A stretch of 64,000 nucleotides of DNA. It comes from Halomarina oriensis. GTDB taxonomy: Archaea; Halobacteriota; Halobacteria; Halobacteriales; Haloarculaceae. The stretch's first letter is position 1. Every line of letters starts with the position of its first letter. Made by a program: the position numbers and the translations under genes. The DNA lies in the NCBI RefSeq assembly GCF_009791395.1, contig NZ_WSZK01000015.1:248001-312000 (forward strand), read 5' to 3'. This document shows, in pieces, positions 53,016 through 60,258 of the stretch. The notes beneath the pieces are model-generated. The model was given only the letters and a program-made list of their open reading frames with translations, was not told where the DNA came from and made no database searches.

Positions 53016-54368
53016 TCACTCCTCCCCGTCGTCGCTCCCAACGGTCGGCCACGGGGTGCTGGGGGTGTGGTCGCTCGTCGAGTCGTCGGACCCGTCCGCC
53101 TCGGGGGCCGACTCGTCTTCGACGTCGTCGGAGTCCACCTCGCGTTCGTCGGCGGTCGTCTCCGACGCCACAGCGGGCGTCTCCTCGTCCGTCGACTCCA
53201 CGGCGGTCTCGGAGGGTCCCTCGGCGTCGGTGTCGGCGTCGGTGTCGGTGGCCGACTCCTCGGCGTCCTCGCGTGCGCCGCGGTCGGGTTGGCTCTCGCG
53301 GCGGGCACGCTCGATGAGGTCCGCCGCACCGCGGTCGGCCAGGGCCTGGGCGAACTCGCGGGCGGCCTGCGGGTGGCGCTCGACGGGGAGGTCACGGTTC
53401 TCGCGTATCTCCTCGGTGCCGTCCTGCGAGAGGACGCGGACGGCGACGTTCACCTTCGAGCCCTGCAGTTTCGCGTAGATGCCGACCGGCGCGACACAGC
53501 CACCGCCGAGTTCGGCGAGGATGGTCCGTTCGACCGTCGCGCGAACGCGCGTCGGCGGGTGGTCGACCGCGGAGTGAATCCGCTCTGCCACCTCGTCGTC
53601 GCGGGACGTGACGGCGATGGAACCCTGTCCCGGCGCGGGGACGAACCGCGACGGCGAGAGGCGCTGATACTGCAGCGAGTGGGCGAGTCCCGAGCGGTCG
53701 AGACCGGCTTCCGCGAGGACGATGGCGTCGTACTCCGTCTCCACGTCGCGTTCGAGCGCGCGGCGCTGGAGTTCGCTCAGGCCGTTGAACCACGTGTCGA
53801 GGTCCTCGTCGAACGACTCGGTGGTGGCGTCGTCGTCCGCCCCGTCCGTCTCCTCCGCATCGAGACGGCGCTCGTGTTCGCGCTGGAGACCCGGCGCGAG
53901 CAGTTTCTCGGCACGGGTGTCGACGTTCCCCCGGAGCGGCTGGACGTCGAGGTCCGGGCGCTCGGCGAGCAACTGGGCCTTCCGGCGGAGGCTGGAGGTG
54001 CCGACCGTCGCGCCGCTGGGGAGGTCCTCCAGCGGGCGGCCGTCGACGGTGACGAGGACGTCGGTGGCGCTGGCACGCTCGGGGACGCCCGCGACGACGA
54101 GGTCGTCGGGCATCTCGGTGGGCATGTCCTTCATCGAGTGGACGGCGGCGTCGACGTCGCCCGAGAGGACCTGTTCGTCGAGTGCGCGGACGAACGCGCC
54201 GGTCTTCCCGAGGCGATGGATGAGTTCGTCGGTGATGCGGTCGCCGCGGGTCTCCACCTCGACGAGGTCGACCGGCCGACGCCGGGTCGCCAGCACCTCG
54301 CGCACCGACTCGGCCTGTCGGAGCGCCAGCGCCGACCCGCGCGTCGCCAGCCGTAGCGTATCGCTCAT
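53016..54368 (-). CDS. hemC: Hydroxymethylbilane synthase with an acidic C-terminal extension
   Basis: 450 residues versus about 310-380 in typical enzymes. LRLATRGSALALRQAESV starts domain 1; AAVHSMKDMPTEMPDD, VGTSSLRRKAQLLAERPDL and PLRGNVDTRAEKL follow; GGGCVAPVGIYAK contains the Cys that holds the dipyrromethane cofactor. An acidic insert (DAEETDGADDDATTESFDED, about 168-188) and a final stretch of about 90 residues rich in Asp, Glu, Ser and Thr are unusual additions, probably disordered. First gene of the hemC-cobA-hemD operon. Confidence 0.95.
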   Translation of the reverse strand: MSDTLRLATRGSALALRQAESVREVLATRRRPVDLVEVETRGDRITDELIHRLGKTGAFVRALDEQVLSGDVDAAVHSMKDMPTEMPDDLVVAGVPERASATDVLVTVDGRPLEDLPSGATVGTSSLRRKAQLLAERPDLDVQPLRGNVDTRAEKLLAPGLQREHERRLDAEETDGADDDATTESFDEDLDTWFNGLSELQRRALERDVETEYDAIVLAEAGLDRSGLAHSLQYQRLSPSRFVPAPGQGSIAVTSRDDEVAERIHSAVDHPPTRVRATVERTILAELGGGCVAPVGIYAKLQGSKVNVAVRVLSQDGTEEIRENRDLPVERHPQAAREFAQALADRGAADLIERARRESQPDRGAREDAEESATDTDADTDAEGPSETAVESTDEETPAVASETTADEREVDSDDVEDESAPEADGSDDSTSDHTPSTPWPTVGSDDGEE

Positions 54369-54402
54369 ACACGGACTGGACGGCGAACGCTGAAAAGACG
54401 TT

Positions 54403-54843
54403 CTATGGCGTCCCGACCGCCTGTCGACGCTTGTAGAGGTAGTAGAACGCGACCGCCGGCTGGACGATCTGGACGAACAGGCCGAGAGCGGCCACGCCGG
54501 CGAACAGCGTCGGGTCCGGCCGCCAGCCGACGTTCGCCTCGGTCACCGCCTGCGCGTCGAAGTAGAGCGCGACCGGAAGGAGCAGACTCAAGACGAGACC
54601 GACGAGCGCCAACAGCACGAACACGAGGAAGGCGAGCCCGAATCCGACACCCAACAGCCCGGCCGGATCACCGAGGCCGATGACTGCGGGCACGAACACG
54701 GTGAGGAACAGTAACAACCCGACGACGTACGCGAAGACGAAGAACGCCCCCGCCAGCGCGATGGCTTTCCACCACTCGGAGTCGACGTATCGGTCGGTCG
54801 TGTGACTCGCGGTGGCCGTGCGAGTCGTGGAGGGTGACGACAT
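54403..54843 (-). CDS. Membrane protein of unknown function
   Basis: 146 residues, MSSPSTTRTATASHTTDRYV and then WWKAIALAGAFFVFAYVVGL. Four hydrophobic segments (about 32-52, 58-80, 85-108, 118-138) and a basic end YKRRQAVGTP. Hydrophobicity and Trp-Trp near the first span resemble small bactofilin-free membrane proteins of haloarchaea, but I do not recognise the family. The ATG at 54843 is used. Upstream of hemC, same strand, 34-base gap. Confidence 0.7.
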   Translation of the reverse strand: MSSPSTTRTATASHTTDRYVDSEWWKAIALAGAFFVFAYVVGLLLFLTVFVPAVIGLGDPAGLLGVGFGLAFLVFVLLALVGLVLSLLLPVALYFDAQAVTEANVGWRPDPTLFAGVAALGLFVQIVQPAVAFYYLYKRRQAVGTP

Positions 54844-54923
54844 ACGCGACACCACAGTGTCACGCGGCATAAACGTTCAGGGGAGTGTGGTCGCTCGGGA
54901 GCGTGGAACCGACGACTGCCGAC

Positions 54924-56269
54924 CTACGAGAAGAACGCCTCGTACGCGTCCAGCGTCTCCTCGACGTCCGCTTCGGTGTGGGCGTAGCTGACGAACTGGC
55001 TCTCCATCTGGTTCGCGGGGAGCAAAATCCCCTGTTCTTCCATGAACGGTCGGAACAGGCGGTCCCAGCGCTGGTCTCGGCGTTCGCCACGTCCGCGCCC
55101 GTCTTCGGACAGTCGCCGTAGCGCTCGCAGGTCGGGTCCTGCGTACACCCGGCGGAACAGCAGTCGCTCTGTGGGCCGGTCGCGCTCCGGCCGAACACCA
55201 CCTTGAACATCGAGTCCGTCCCGACGACGGTGTACTCGGGGGCGCGGTCGGCGACGATGTCGGTCAGGCCCTCCCGCAACTGCTCGCCGAGTGCGTTCAC
55301 GTGCTCGTAGACGTCCTGCTCGGCGCAGAACTCCAGCGTGGCGAGACCGGCCGCCATCGTCACCGGGTGTCCCGAGAACGTCCCCGACTGGAAGACGTCG
55401 CCCGACGGCGAGAACTGCTCGATTATCTCGCTCTTGCCGCCGATAGCGCCGACGGGGAACCCGCCGCCGACGATCTTGCCGAACGTCGTCACGTCGGGCG
55501 TGACGCCGAACTTCGACTGCGCACAGCCCAACCCGCCGACGCGGAAACCCGTGATGACCTCGTCGAGGACGTAGAGCGCACCGTGGTCGTCACAGAGGTC
55601 CCGAATCGTCTCGTGGGAGCCCTCCTCGGGCATCACGATACCCGAGTTGCCGAGGATGGGTTCGGTGAGGACGCAGGCGATGTCCTCGCCGTGTGCCTCG
55701 AACACGTCGCGGAGCGCGTCCTCGTCGTTGAACGGCACGGGCAGGGTGTGCTCGGCGAACGACTGGGGAATCCCGCTCGTGGAGGGACGAGGGTGCTCGA
55801 CGTCGCCCTCGACGAGCGTGGACTCCTGCGCGCCGTGGTAGCCCCCTTGCATGACGACGATCTTGTTCCGACCCGTGTAGCCACGGGCGAGGCGGACGGC
55901 CGACACCGTGGCCTCCGTGCCGGAGTTGACGAAACGAATCATCTCCACGCTCGGGACGTGCCGGACGACGAACTCCGCGAGGTCCACCTCGACTTCGGTG
56001 GGTGCGCCGTACATCGGCCCCTCGCTGGCGGCACGCTGGACCGCGGCGGCGACGGACTCGGGCATGTCGTGACCGAGCAAGAGCGGTCCGTAGCCCATCA
56101 CGTAGTCGACGTAGCGGTTGCCGTCCTGGTCGATGACGTGTGCACCGTCGCCCTTCCGGACGAACGTGGGGTACGGTTGGGTCGCCCGGACCGAGGAGTT
56201 GACACCGGCGGGCATGACCGACAGCGCCCGGTCGTACAGCGCCCGAGAGTTCTCGCGGTTGCGAGTCAT
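54924..56269 (-). pseudogene. hemL: Glutamate-1-semialdehyde 2,1-aminomutase, interrupted by a one-base frameshift
   Basis: About 448 residues after repair. [21 protein letters not shown] start; [48 protein letters not shown], and [17 protein letters not shown] with the pyridoxal-phosphate Lys. A cysteine-rich stretch ([20 protein letters not shown]) typical of haloarchaeal HemL follows. Within 55068-55072 one base is missing; adding it joins ADVANAET to [13 protein letters not shown] and the normal end LDAYEAFFS. This enzyme makes 5-aminolevulinate and is normally required, so a sequencing error is likely. Operates with hemB, hemC and hemD here. Confidence 0.9.
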
Positions 56270-56326
56270 GGCGGCGCTTCTCGCGGGTGCAGTAAGGAGG
56301 TTACTGCATCGGTGGTCGAGACGAGG

Positions 56327-56821
56327 TCACGCGGACCGAGCGGCCCGGACGCCCGCGAGGAACTGCCGACGGGCGTAGGCAGCGGTCCCGCCGACGACGG
56401 CCGAGCCGAGCGCGAGCAGTGGGACCCCGGCGAGCGCGCCGACGAGGACGGCCGCTGCGAAGCCGGCCACGGTTCCAGGGTCGAGGAACACCCACGGGAG
56501 GGCCGTCGACCCGAACGGGACGCTCGCAACCGTGAGGACGACGAGACTCGCCAACCCGGCGAGGACGCTGTCGTCGAGGACCGCGCGTCCCCCACGCTCG
56601 AACAGGCCGACGACTACGCCCGGCGCGAACAGGGCCACGGAGGCGACGCCCGCACCGAGGACGTTCGAGAACGCGAGGACGCCGAGGCACAGCGCCACGA
56701 GAACGCCGAGCGTGACCGCTCGCCAGTCGACGCTGTCCGTCGGACGCGGTGGGTCGTCGGTCACCCGAGGGACTCGACTCCGGAGCGCGGCCAACCGCAC
56801 CCACATCCGACGGCCCTTCAT
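56327..56821 (-). CDS. Small four-span membrane protein
   Basis: 164 residues, Gly/Ala/Val-rich, with spans at about 35-55, 57-75, 85-105 and 120-145; ends in AYARRQFLAGVRAARSA. The overall look is that of DUF5518-type haloarchaeal membrane proteins, not strong enough to name. CATATAAC at 56846-56853 (minus strand GTTATATG) is 28 bases before the ATG, a good promoter for it. Confidence 0.7.
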   Translation of the reverse strand: MKGRRMWVRLAALRSRVPRVTDDPPRPTDSVDWRAVTLGVLVALCLGVLAFSNVLGAGVASVALFAPGVVVGLFERGGRAVLDDSVLAGLASLVVLTVASVPFGSTALPWVFLDPGTVAGFAAAVLVGALAGVPLLALGSAVVGGTAAYARRQFLAGVRAARSA

Positions 56822-56845
56822 ACACTACAATGAGATAGTCTCTTT

Positions 56846-56853
56846 CATATAAC
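56846..56853 (-). promoter_or_regulatory. TATA box for the small membrane protein gene
   Basis: Minus-strand GTTATATG centred about 28 bases before the ATG at 56821, in an AT-rich island (56825-56860). Confidence 0.5.
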
Positions 56854-56934
56854 TGTTCGGCTCGTGGGACGAACGTCGGCCGACCCAGAGCGAGCGAGGG
56901 ACGGGAGGCGAACGCCTCGACCGATACGAGCGGT

Positions 56935-58626
56935 TCAGACCGCCTCGATGCCCTCCGTACCGGTGCGAATCTGCCGGGCGTACTCGACGGGCAGGACGAA
57001 CACCTTCCCGTCGCCCTTCTCGCCGGTCTTCGCGGCCGACGCGATGGCCTCGACGACGTCCTGTGCCGGCGTCTCGGCGACGACGCACTCCACCTTCACC
57101 TTCTGGTGGAGGTCCACGACGTACTCCTCGCCGCGCCACTGGCCCTTCTTCGCGGGCTGTGAGCCGCGACCGGAGACGTTCGTCACCGAGATAGACGGTG
57201 CGCCGGCCTCGACGAGCGACTGCTTGACCGCGCCGAGCCTGTCCGGTCGGACGTACGCGACGACCATCTTGATACCACCGTCGTTCGGGCGGCCGTCGTC
57301 GCCGACCGAGCCGCCGTCGGTGCGGACGCCGCCGTCGGTCGTGACGACGGGGTCGTCACCGAGGTTGAACTCAGGGTAGGTCTCGACGCCGTGTTCGGAG
57401 ATGTCGAGGCCCTCCAGTTCGTGTTCGCGGGTGACGCGGGCCTGGCCGAGCGCCTTCAGACCGCCGAAGACGACGGCCGTGGCGAGGACGGTCCAGCCGG
57501 CGATGACCGCGACGCCGACGAACTGCGGGACGACGAGGTCGGTGCTGACGACCCAGCCACCACCCTCACCCACCGTGAAGAACGGCAGGAGGAGCGCACC
57601 GAGCACCCCGGCACTGCCGTGAACGGGGAACACCGCACAGACGTCGTCGATGTGGAGGCGTTTCTCGACGAACTCGAACACCACGGGGAGCTGTGCGCCC
57701 GCGAGGAAGCCGATAACGGGCGCGGCCCACCAGACGATGGCGTCGGTGTTCGACGTGATGCCGACGAGACCTGCGAGCATCCCGTTGGCGACGTACAGCG
57801 TGTCGACCTTGCCAGTCTTCGCCAGCGAGACGGCGCTCGCGCCGATGGCTCCGGCGGCCATCCCGAGCGTCGTCGTCAGCGCGACGCGGCCGAGTGCCCC
57901 ACCCATGAACTCGCCCGTCTCGGGGTCGAGGATGGTCGCCTGTGTCCCGACGTTGAAGCCGTACCAGCCGAAACAGAGCAAGAGCGTCCCCAACACGGCG
58001 AACGTGATGGAGTGGCCGGGGATGACGTTGACCGAGCCGTCGCCGTCGAAGCGGTTGAGCCGTGGGCCGAGAATCCAGGCCGCGGTCAGGCCGGCGATGC
58101 CACCCATCCCGTGGACGATCATGCCGCCCGCAAAGTCGCTGAAGCCGACGCCGAACCCGAGTGCGCCGTCCGCCGAGAGCAGGCCCGACCCGGCCCACGT
58201 GAACCCGAGGACGACGGGGTAGACGAGCGCGGCGAGCGCGACGGTGTAGACGACGTACGCGCGGAGCTTCGCACGGCCCGCCACCGCCCCGGAGACGATG
58301 GTGGCGGCCGTCATGGCGAACACCGCGCCGAACAGCCAGCCGACCCAGGCGTTCGGGTCGTCGACGTAGCCGAAGGGTGCGGCGTTCCCGCCGACGACGT
58401 TCCCGATGCCCTGTCCGACGAGGAAGAAGGCCGTCACGCCGACGCTCCAGGTCAGCATGTTCTTCGTCAACTGGTTGGCGACGTTCTTCGAGCGCACCTG
58501 CCCCGCCTCCAGCATGGCGAAGCCGGCGTGCATGAAGAAGATGAGGAACGTGACCGTCAGCACCCAGACGGTGTTGATGCTCTCGGCGACGGCCGCGAGG
58601 TCGGAACCCGCCTGCACGAGCGTCAT
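56935..58626 (-). CDS. amt: Ammonium transporter fused to a PII (GlnK) regulatory domain
   Basis: 563 residues in one frame. Residues 1-410 are an Amt channel with eleven helices; [18 protein letters not shown] and [12 protein letters not shown] carry the twin pore His residues. A linker of about 40 residues ([28 protein letters not shown]) leads to a full PII domain at 452-563: [20 protein letters not shown]-loop [20 protein letters not shown] with the modifiable Tyr position, and [20 protein letters not shown]. Normally Amt and GlnK are separate neighbouring genes; here the inhibitor is tethered to its channel. Confidence 0.95.
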
Positions 58627-59031
58627 CCGCGTACCCCCCTACTGCGACGTTCGTCCATCCATACTCCGAATACCGTGACGTTGTGCGTGTAACTCACGGA
58701 ACCATGTCACGAAACACACCTACAAAAGAGTTCGCTCGTGCATTTCAATATTTTCGCCGGTCAAGACGACGTTCGTGCGAAATGAGGTACAGTATTACGG
58801 ATATAAGGTCGTACTTCGTCCGCTTATCGGACGTTCGACCGCTCCGGAACCGACCGTTCGTCCACGCAAACGTTGCCGTGAGTGGCACTGACACCCGGTA
58901 CGCGCGGACGGGGACCGTGCGCTGGCGGTGGGGACTCGTGTCCATCGATGCCGACGGTTCGGCGCACGCATCCGACGACGCCCGGTCGCTCGGTCGAGCG
59001 ACGACGCCACGCTCTCTGCAAGAGCGTCGGA
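58627..59031. other. Intergenic region between amt and hemB
   Basis: 405 bases. Its left third (58627-58830) is AT-rich and is the control region of amt (GTGTAACTCACGG, TTCAATATTTTCGCC, GTATTACGGATATAAGG). The right third (58980-59031) contains a decayed copy of the end of hemB (see repeat). No small ORF with convincing codon use and no RNA gene was seen. Confidence 0.5.
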
Positions 59032-59077
59032 CTACGGCTGGCTGGTCGCCGAAAGCGACGACGCGACGCTTTCGGCG
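58997..59077 (-). repeat. In-frame partial duplication at the 3' end of hemB
   Basis: Bases 59054-59077 code for part of the HemB C-terminus, AESVASSLS. Bases 58997-59022, just past the stop and in the same frame, read [11 protein letters not shown]. The offset is 57 bases (19 codons). This looks like an old local duplication that put a stop codon between two copies. Confidence 0.5.
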
Positions 59078-60081
59078 AAGTACGTCAGGATCAGGTCCGC
59101 ACCGGCGCGTTTGATGGAGAGCAGCGACTCGTGGGCCGCGGCGTCGAGGTCCAGCCACCCCTTCTCGGCGGCGGCGTGGAGCATCGCGTACTCACCCGAG
59201 ACGTTGTACGCGGCGACGGGGTAGTCGGACGCCTCGCGGACGTCCCGGACGACGTCGAGGTACGGGAGTGCGGGTTTCACCATCAGCACGTCCGCGCCCT
59301 GTTCGACGTCCAACTGGACCTCGCGCCGCGCCTCGCGGGCGTTCGCGGGGTCCATCTGGTAGTGCCGGCGGTCACCGAACGCGGGCGCACCGTCGGCGGC
59401 GTCACGGAACGGCCCGTAGAACGACGACTCGAACTTCGCGGCGTAGCTCATGATGGGCACGTCCGTGTGCCCCGCCGAATCGAGCGCCTCGCGGATCGCG
59501 CCGACCATCCCGTCGGTCATGCTGGACGGTGCGACCATGTCCGCGCCCGCGTCGGCCTGCGAGACGGCGGTTCGCGCGAGCAGGTCGAGCGTCTCGTCGT
59601 TCTTCACCGTCAGGGTGGGGTCATCGGCGGCGTGGTCCTCGACGACATCGTCTCGGCGGAGCCGCTCCCAGCGCTCCTTCGCTTCGCTCTCGAGAACCCC
59701 GCAGTGCCCGTGGCTGGTGTACTCACAGAGACAGACGTCGCCGACGACGTAGGCGTCGGTCTCCTCGCTGACCGCCCGCATCGCTCGCTGGACGACGCCG
59801 TCCTCGGCGTACGCCCGCGACCCGACCGCGTCTTTCTCCTCGGGGATGCCGAACAGCATCACCGCCTGTACGCCCGTCGCCAGCACCTCCTCGACACGCT
59901 CGACGATACCCGAGACCGGCACGCGCGGATGACCGGGCATCGACCCGATTGGCACCCGTTCGTCGGTCGTCGCGTCGACGAACACGGGGGCGATGAGGTC
60001 CGAGGGCGACAGCGACGTCTCGCGGACGAGCGGTCGAATCCCGTCGGTTCTGAGCCGGCGGGGACGGTGAGTGAGGTCCAT
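59032..60081 (-). CDS. hemB: Delta-aminolevulinic acid dehydratase (porphobilinogen synthase)
   Basis: 349 residues. Condenses two 5-aminolevulinates into porphobilinogen. [19 protein letters not shown] start; zinc site [12 protein letters not shown]; Schiff-base lysines in [14 protein letters not shown] and [25 protein letters not shown] near the C-terminus. Complete. Close to, but not in an operon with, hemL and hemC-cobA-hemD. Confidence 0.96.
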
Positions 60082-60258
60082 ACCCGACAGTCGGAACGGG
60101 CGGTGAAAGCCGTTGTCGATGCGGTGGGCCGAACACCACCGAACACCCACACGACCCGACTCACGACGTCGGCATCGAGACAGCGATACGACGAGGAGAG
60201 GCGTGTTCGAGACGACCGTCGTGGCCGACGAGGAGGGAGAACGGACGGTGAACGACGG

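Follow-up and report, generated by a model that had tools for sequence, protein, structure and literature searches.

PII proteins are usually taught as free, shuttling regulators with many targets. Ammonium transporters (Amts) with a signalling domain attached at the C-terminus are also known, in Ks-Amt5 and Sd-Amt1, where the attached domains, which we take to be a histidine kinase and a diguanylate cyclase, signal outward. The closest described counterpart of the locus considered here is the AmtB-GlnK system of E. coli and Archaea (2nuu, 2ns1; Haloferax mediterranei AmtB1-GlnK, PMC3831643), which is defined by a GlnK that is a protein of its own, binds reversibly and comes off the membrane when nitrogen is limiting. 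A review on the modification of PII states that the genes for Amt and GlnK are invariably linked in one operon (PMC4285133). The C-terminal tail of E. coli AmtB contacts GlnK (PMC3831643), and in Af-GlnK3 residues Q39 and K58 switch with 2-oxoglutarate (2-OG) or ADP, the Arg47 positions being 31 Å apart in the Amt-binding state and 46 Å apart in the 2-OG state (PMC3198391).

Here we present an analysis of a gene of Halomarina oriensis, found in a 64,000-nucleotide stretch of DNA (the window), in which Amt and PII make up one polypeptide. As in AmtB-GlnK, Amt comes first and PII second, the protein retains the Arg47 T-loop, the ATP/2-OG site and the C-terminal tail of Amt, and gating by ADP and 2-OG is presumed. 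Unlike that system, the fusion has neither a glnK start nor a Shine-Dalgarno (SD) sequence, the genome encodes no free PII, and attachment to the channel keeps the fused domain from acting on glutamine synthetase (GS) elsewhere; a separate GlnK with reversible binding is missing. Like Ks-Amt5 and Sd-Amt1, the protein carries a C-terminal domain, but one that would inhibit its own pore. We consider it likely that the product is a single-chain, cis-regulated ammonium channel with a tethered PII gate. The open-licence literature, to which our search was confined, yielded reporter-tag fusions only, and none of Amt with PII that occurs in nature. Because the architecture is presumably already contained in domain databases, and subscription papers lay outside the search, we claim it as a variant and not as unprecedented.

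The amt-PII gene and its product

The frame runs without interruption from Amt into a complete PII domain, as the preliminary description had stated (Table 1). Pfam Ammonium_transp is matched over its entire model (1-399 of 399; 313.7 bits against a cut-off of 23.2) and P-II over nearly all of its own (residues 453-556, model positions 2-101; 80.1 bits against a cut-off of 25), and NCBIfam finds the same two families in the 563-aa frame. The search for other glnK genes that the preliminary description had called for, made across the whole source genome (50 contigs, 99.6% complete), returned a single P-II match and a single Amt match, both in the amt-PII gene, and no separate PII; one GS is encoded.

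Table 1. Features of the amt-PII gene, with positions given in the window
Feature	Residues	Position	Strand	Remarks
amt-PII fusion gene		56935..58626	(-)	563 aa; ATG start; no internal stop
Amt channel domain	20-417	57376..58569	(-)	PF00909, E 2e-93; twin His H172 and H336
Amt C-terminal tail	406-420	57367..57411	(-)	conserved GLD..EHG..YPE; corresponds to the GlnK-contacting tail of E. coli AmtB
Asp/Gly-rich linker with DGGVRTDGG	418-451	57274..57375	(-)	low pLDDT in the AlphaFold2 model
PII (GlnK) domain	452-563	56938..57273	(-)	PF00543, E 1.7e-22; ligand residues all kept
T-loop	488-506	57109..57165	(-)	R47 = R498, Y51 = Y502, both conserved; flexible in the model

With I452 counted as PII residue 1, the ATP/2-OG residues Q39, K58, T83, G87, D88, G89, K90 and R103 are all present in the window domain. 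Among 110 distinct fused PII domains, Q39, K58, T83, G87, D88, G89, K90, R47 and W46 were 100% conserved, R103 was 99% conserved and Y51 91%, with Phe in the remainder, and separate haloarchaeal GlnKs showed the same pattern. This conserved set includes the ATP/2-OG switch and the pore-blocking residues described for Af-GlnK3 (PMC3198391). The substitution of Y51 need not matter, since the binding of E. coli GlnK to AmtB responds to effectors without uridylylation (PMC4274968). The bacterial-type R38 and R101 are absent from the window domain, which has S38 and Q101, and ligand affinities may therefore differ; however, since over 90% of the separate GlnKs of haloarchaea carry the latter pair too, it is a trait of the lineage, and we rejected it as an adaptation to fusion. 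Codon differences between the PII domain and its relatives fall mostly at third positions, and the domain is, as judged from its sequence, under purifying selection. The window PII is 73% identical to that of Halomarina rubra, as against 91% for the Amt part, and the domain is closest to separate GlnKs from other genera (~80%); either faster evolution or domain exchange may lie behind this divergence.

On the Amt side, the twin histidines of the pore, also recognized in the preliminary description, were invariant in 113 fused and 45 separate Amts (158 aligned). The tail residues G406, L407, D408, E411, H412, G413, Y417, P418 and E419 were likewise 100% conserved in fused and separate Amts.

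An AlphaFold2 model of modest quality (built on 16 rows; pLDDT 69) contains the 11 transmembrane helices of Amt and the ferredoxin-like beta-alpha-beta-beta-alpha-beta fold of PII, with pLDDT below 50 at residues 407-450, a disordered linker segment, and at 481-507, the flexible T-loop. The best Foldseek matches of the Amt part were Amt structures, both sensors and transporters (TM-score to target ~0.8), headed by Ks-Amt5 (6eu6, Sensor Amt Protein) and the receptor Sd-Amt1 (8qj3, 8qj4, 8qpf), and entries for AmtB-GlnK complexes were also among the fold matches. The closest solved PII is Haloferax mediterranei GlnK2 (4ozj, 4ozl, 4ozn; 71% identity in the fold match, E 1.5e-54 by sequence), which is a separate protein, and the search of sequences of solved structures found no chain with both Amt and PII.

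Linkers in other fused genes, counted from the end of the YPEF motif to the PII core, were 15-66 aa long with a median of 28, the shortest belonging to Halomarina rubra. From the PII fold, the N-terminus of the domain should lie on the side opposite the T-loop, so that the linker must run along a barrel of ~30 Å; 15 residues reach ~50 Å at most, which would leave the shortest linkers nearly taut. In several linkers (loci L231, L216, L147 and others) the unit (I/L)R(T/S/A)DGG recurs, with as many as three or four copies each, as if the linker had grown by repeat expansion.

In the window, the gene sits inside a heme-synthesis cluster (53016-60150), flanked by genes that we take, from our own reading of their translations, to be hemB on one side and hemL and hemC on the other, in the order hemB, amt-PII, hemL, hemC. 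Among the best 80 named loci, hemB was found within ~6 kb in 60, hemL in 55 and hemC in 32. The heme pathway of this neighbourhood is the glutamate-based one.

Distribution and evolutionary history of the fusion

The preliminary description had proposed that haloarchaea be surveyed for fused and separate genes. P-II matches were found in 218 of 243 Halobacteriales genomes, and the match table covers 217 of these (G107 being left out). A P-II match inside a frame of more than 500 aa, frame length serving as a proxy for fusion, was found in 145 of the 217; by this measure 131 genomes have fused Amt-PII only, 14 have both forms and 72 have separate PII only. Both domains were confirmed in one frame in 149 fetched loci, one of which (L211) is an artefact, and for the family as a whole this excludes the stop or frameshift near residues 410-450 that had been named as what would split the gene. 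The single chain is thus confirmed, as are the completeness of PII and the lack of a second PII in the genome, but the rarity that the preliminary description implied was wrong: in Halobacteriales the fused form is in the majority, and Bacillota have it too.

Among named genomes, those of Halomarina halobia and Halomarina rubra come closest (82-84% identity). Among the best 80 named matches, the fusion occurs in Natrinema, Haloterrigena, Halorussus, Natronomonas, Haladaptatus, Halobaculum, Halosegnis and others, whereas Haloferax and Halogeometricum have separate genes. In the wider phylum (295 genomes), at least one stop separated the domains in every listed match from outside Halobacteria that spanned both Amt and PII, and amt and glnK were often in frame with exactly one intervening stop. 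At four loci (L013, L017, L082, L229) a second, separate PII gene lies directly 3' of the fused one, and since free and tethered PII coexist there, these are good material for comparing the two roles. Two genomes (G031 and G058; loci L210 and L211, family f17) have only truncated P-II matches, covering 30-101 and 69-102 of 102 positions, and these are perhaps decaying PII genes.

A quick IQ-TREE analysis of 169 Amt rows, to be read with caution because of the long branch to the outgroup, resolved two haloarchaeal clades: clade II, with 126 rows of which 99 are fused, and clade I, in which the genes are mostly separate. All of the deepest branches of clade II, the window included, are fused. 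The tree points to a single ancient fusion at the root of clade II, followed by about a dozen fissions, and to two further fusions in clade I. Equal-cost parsimony gives 3 gains and 13 losses of the fusion, and the starred branches by themselves force at least nine changes; when fission is made to cost twice as much as fusion, the count shifts to 11 gains and 6 losses, so the exact history hinges on the cost assumption. The Haloferax pair in clade II seems to have arisen when an older fusion was split again. A PNDG linker relic was found in 13 of 41 separate glnKs of clade II and 5 of 40 of clade I; as proof of fission, we consider it suggestive only. Having been broken again in about a dozen lineages, the fusion is not irreplaceable.

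Outside the haloarchaea, tblastn on plasmids identified single-CDS Amt-PII proteins in Bacillota, annotated merely as "ammonium transporter" (Ruminococcus albus WP_013483901.1, Enterococcus raffinosus WP_222227351.1, Monoglobus WP_320691151.1). These share with the haloarchaeal proteins the order of domains in one CDS and the residues R47, Q39, K58 and GDGK, but they are only ~31-34% identical to them and do not keep Y51. The Bacillota Amts cluster apart from the haloarchaeal ones, which argues for an independent fusion. In Monoglobus pectinilyticus (L276, 245-4219) the fusion adjoins a glutamine synthetase III gene.

Gating, release and nitrogen sensing

In the proposed mechanism, three Amt subunits would form the trimer, each bearing a PII subunit on its flexible acidic linker, and the three tethered PII domains would trimerise beneath the same channel. 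When 2-OG is scarce or ADP abundant, conditions of nitrogen sufficiency or low energy, the T-loops would enter the pores and Arg47 would close them; Mg-ATP and 2-OG would pry the T-loops apart and cause their withdrawal, with PII remaining attached. GlnK would in this way have passed from diffusible hub to fixed gate, and what remains of nitrogen control would fall to direct sensors, GS among them. The trimer geometry, the gating and the loss of the hub role are what we infer; the tethered local gate is the best fit to the sequence data, in view of the conservation of T-loop Arg47, of the nucleotide and 2-OG residues and of the Amt tail, and of linkers with sufficient length.

In separate glnK genes the start usually overlaps the stop of amt, as TGA within ATGA, and the tail of amt contains the SD sequence GGTGA. 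A scan for an in-frame start with an SD sequence before the PII core found this signal in 82 of 99 separate genes but only 5 of 130 fused genes; it has been lost from the latter, so that a fused gene is unlikely to be translated into a free GlnK as well. Haloarchaea often use leaderless transcripts, for which the Met at PII position 3 in 77% of fused domains could serve; however, 22% of them have Leu here instead, and separate GlnKs vary just as much at this position; Met is thus not preserved for initiation. That the fusion is a precursor, from which an internal transcript or proteolysis of the linker yields free GlnK of the usual type, would also suit a disordered linker with repeated RTDGG units, but the fused genes compared revealed no conserved cleavage motif in this fast-evolving segment, and with the initiation signal gone as well we think release of PII unlikely. 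The frame might also be an artefact or a product of chance, the stop codon having vanished in a single assembly or the PII tail being functionless and in decay. Outside Halobacteria, amt and glnK of the phylum often stand in frame a single stop apart, and read-through by error would take little. The recurrence of the same frame throughout the survey rules out sequencing or assembly error, and ligand residues conserved at or near 100% led us to reject the functionless tail; such explanations deserve next to no weight.

The fate of nitrogen sensing elsewhere in the cell turns on GS. According to the part of PMC10799026 that cites Pedro-Roig 2013, Haloferax GS is activated 12-fold by 2-OG and 18-fold when separate GlnK is added, and in M. 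mazei 2-OG alone assembles the active enzyme (PMC11957540). GS was found in 39 of 40 fused-only genomes searched. In M. mazei numbering, the 2-OG residues F24, R26, R87, R172, R173 and S189 and the feedback residue R66 were present in all 21 fused-only genomes examined, and the 2-OG residues and the glutamine-feedback Arg also in all 20 GS of separate-only genomes. Since GS keeps its own sites for 2-OG and glutamine, direct sensing is available to it without PII, and it is plausible that GS may be what senses nitrogen elsewhere in fused-only cells. The stimulation of Haloferax GS by separate GlnK, the docking of the M. mazei GlnK1 T-loop into GS (PMC10651883) and the existence of Amts with attached signalling domains (8qj3, "Receptor Sd-Amt1"; 6eu6, "Sensor Amt") could also be taken to mean that the tethered PII acts chiefly as a transceptor or scaffold, recruiting GS or other targets to the channel mouth and coupling uptake to assimilation instead of plugging the pore. 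We regard this as unlikely, as the invariant R47 and the Amt tail fit pore plugging and a GS with its own 2-OG site would not need PII.

Implications for PII function

With PII tethered as a gate, a mobile nitrogen regulator has probably been turned into a fixed part of one channel. Extended to the order, the reading is held with less assurance, though we lean towards it: in most haloarchaea, the sole PII would be a covalent subunit of an Amt gated by 2-OG and ADP, with no mobile hub, GS and transcription would be free of PII control, and Haloferax would be a secondary exception that arose through re-splitting. The fusion is a natural 1:1 Amt-PII complex and could aid structural and transport work. 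Furthermore, repeated fusion and fission in haloarchaea, together with the Bacillota cases, amount to replicated natural experiments. An archaeal order in which PII occurs mostly as a domain of its channel stands against the view of PII as a free regulator, and makes it testable whether plugging Amt is the basic job of PII and its role as a hub dispensable.
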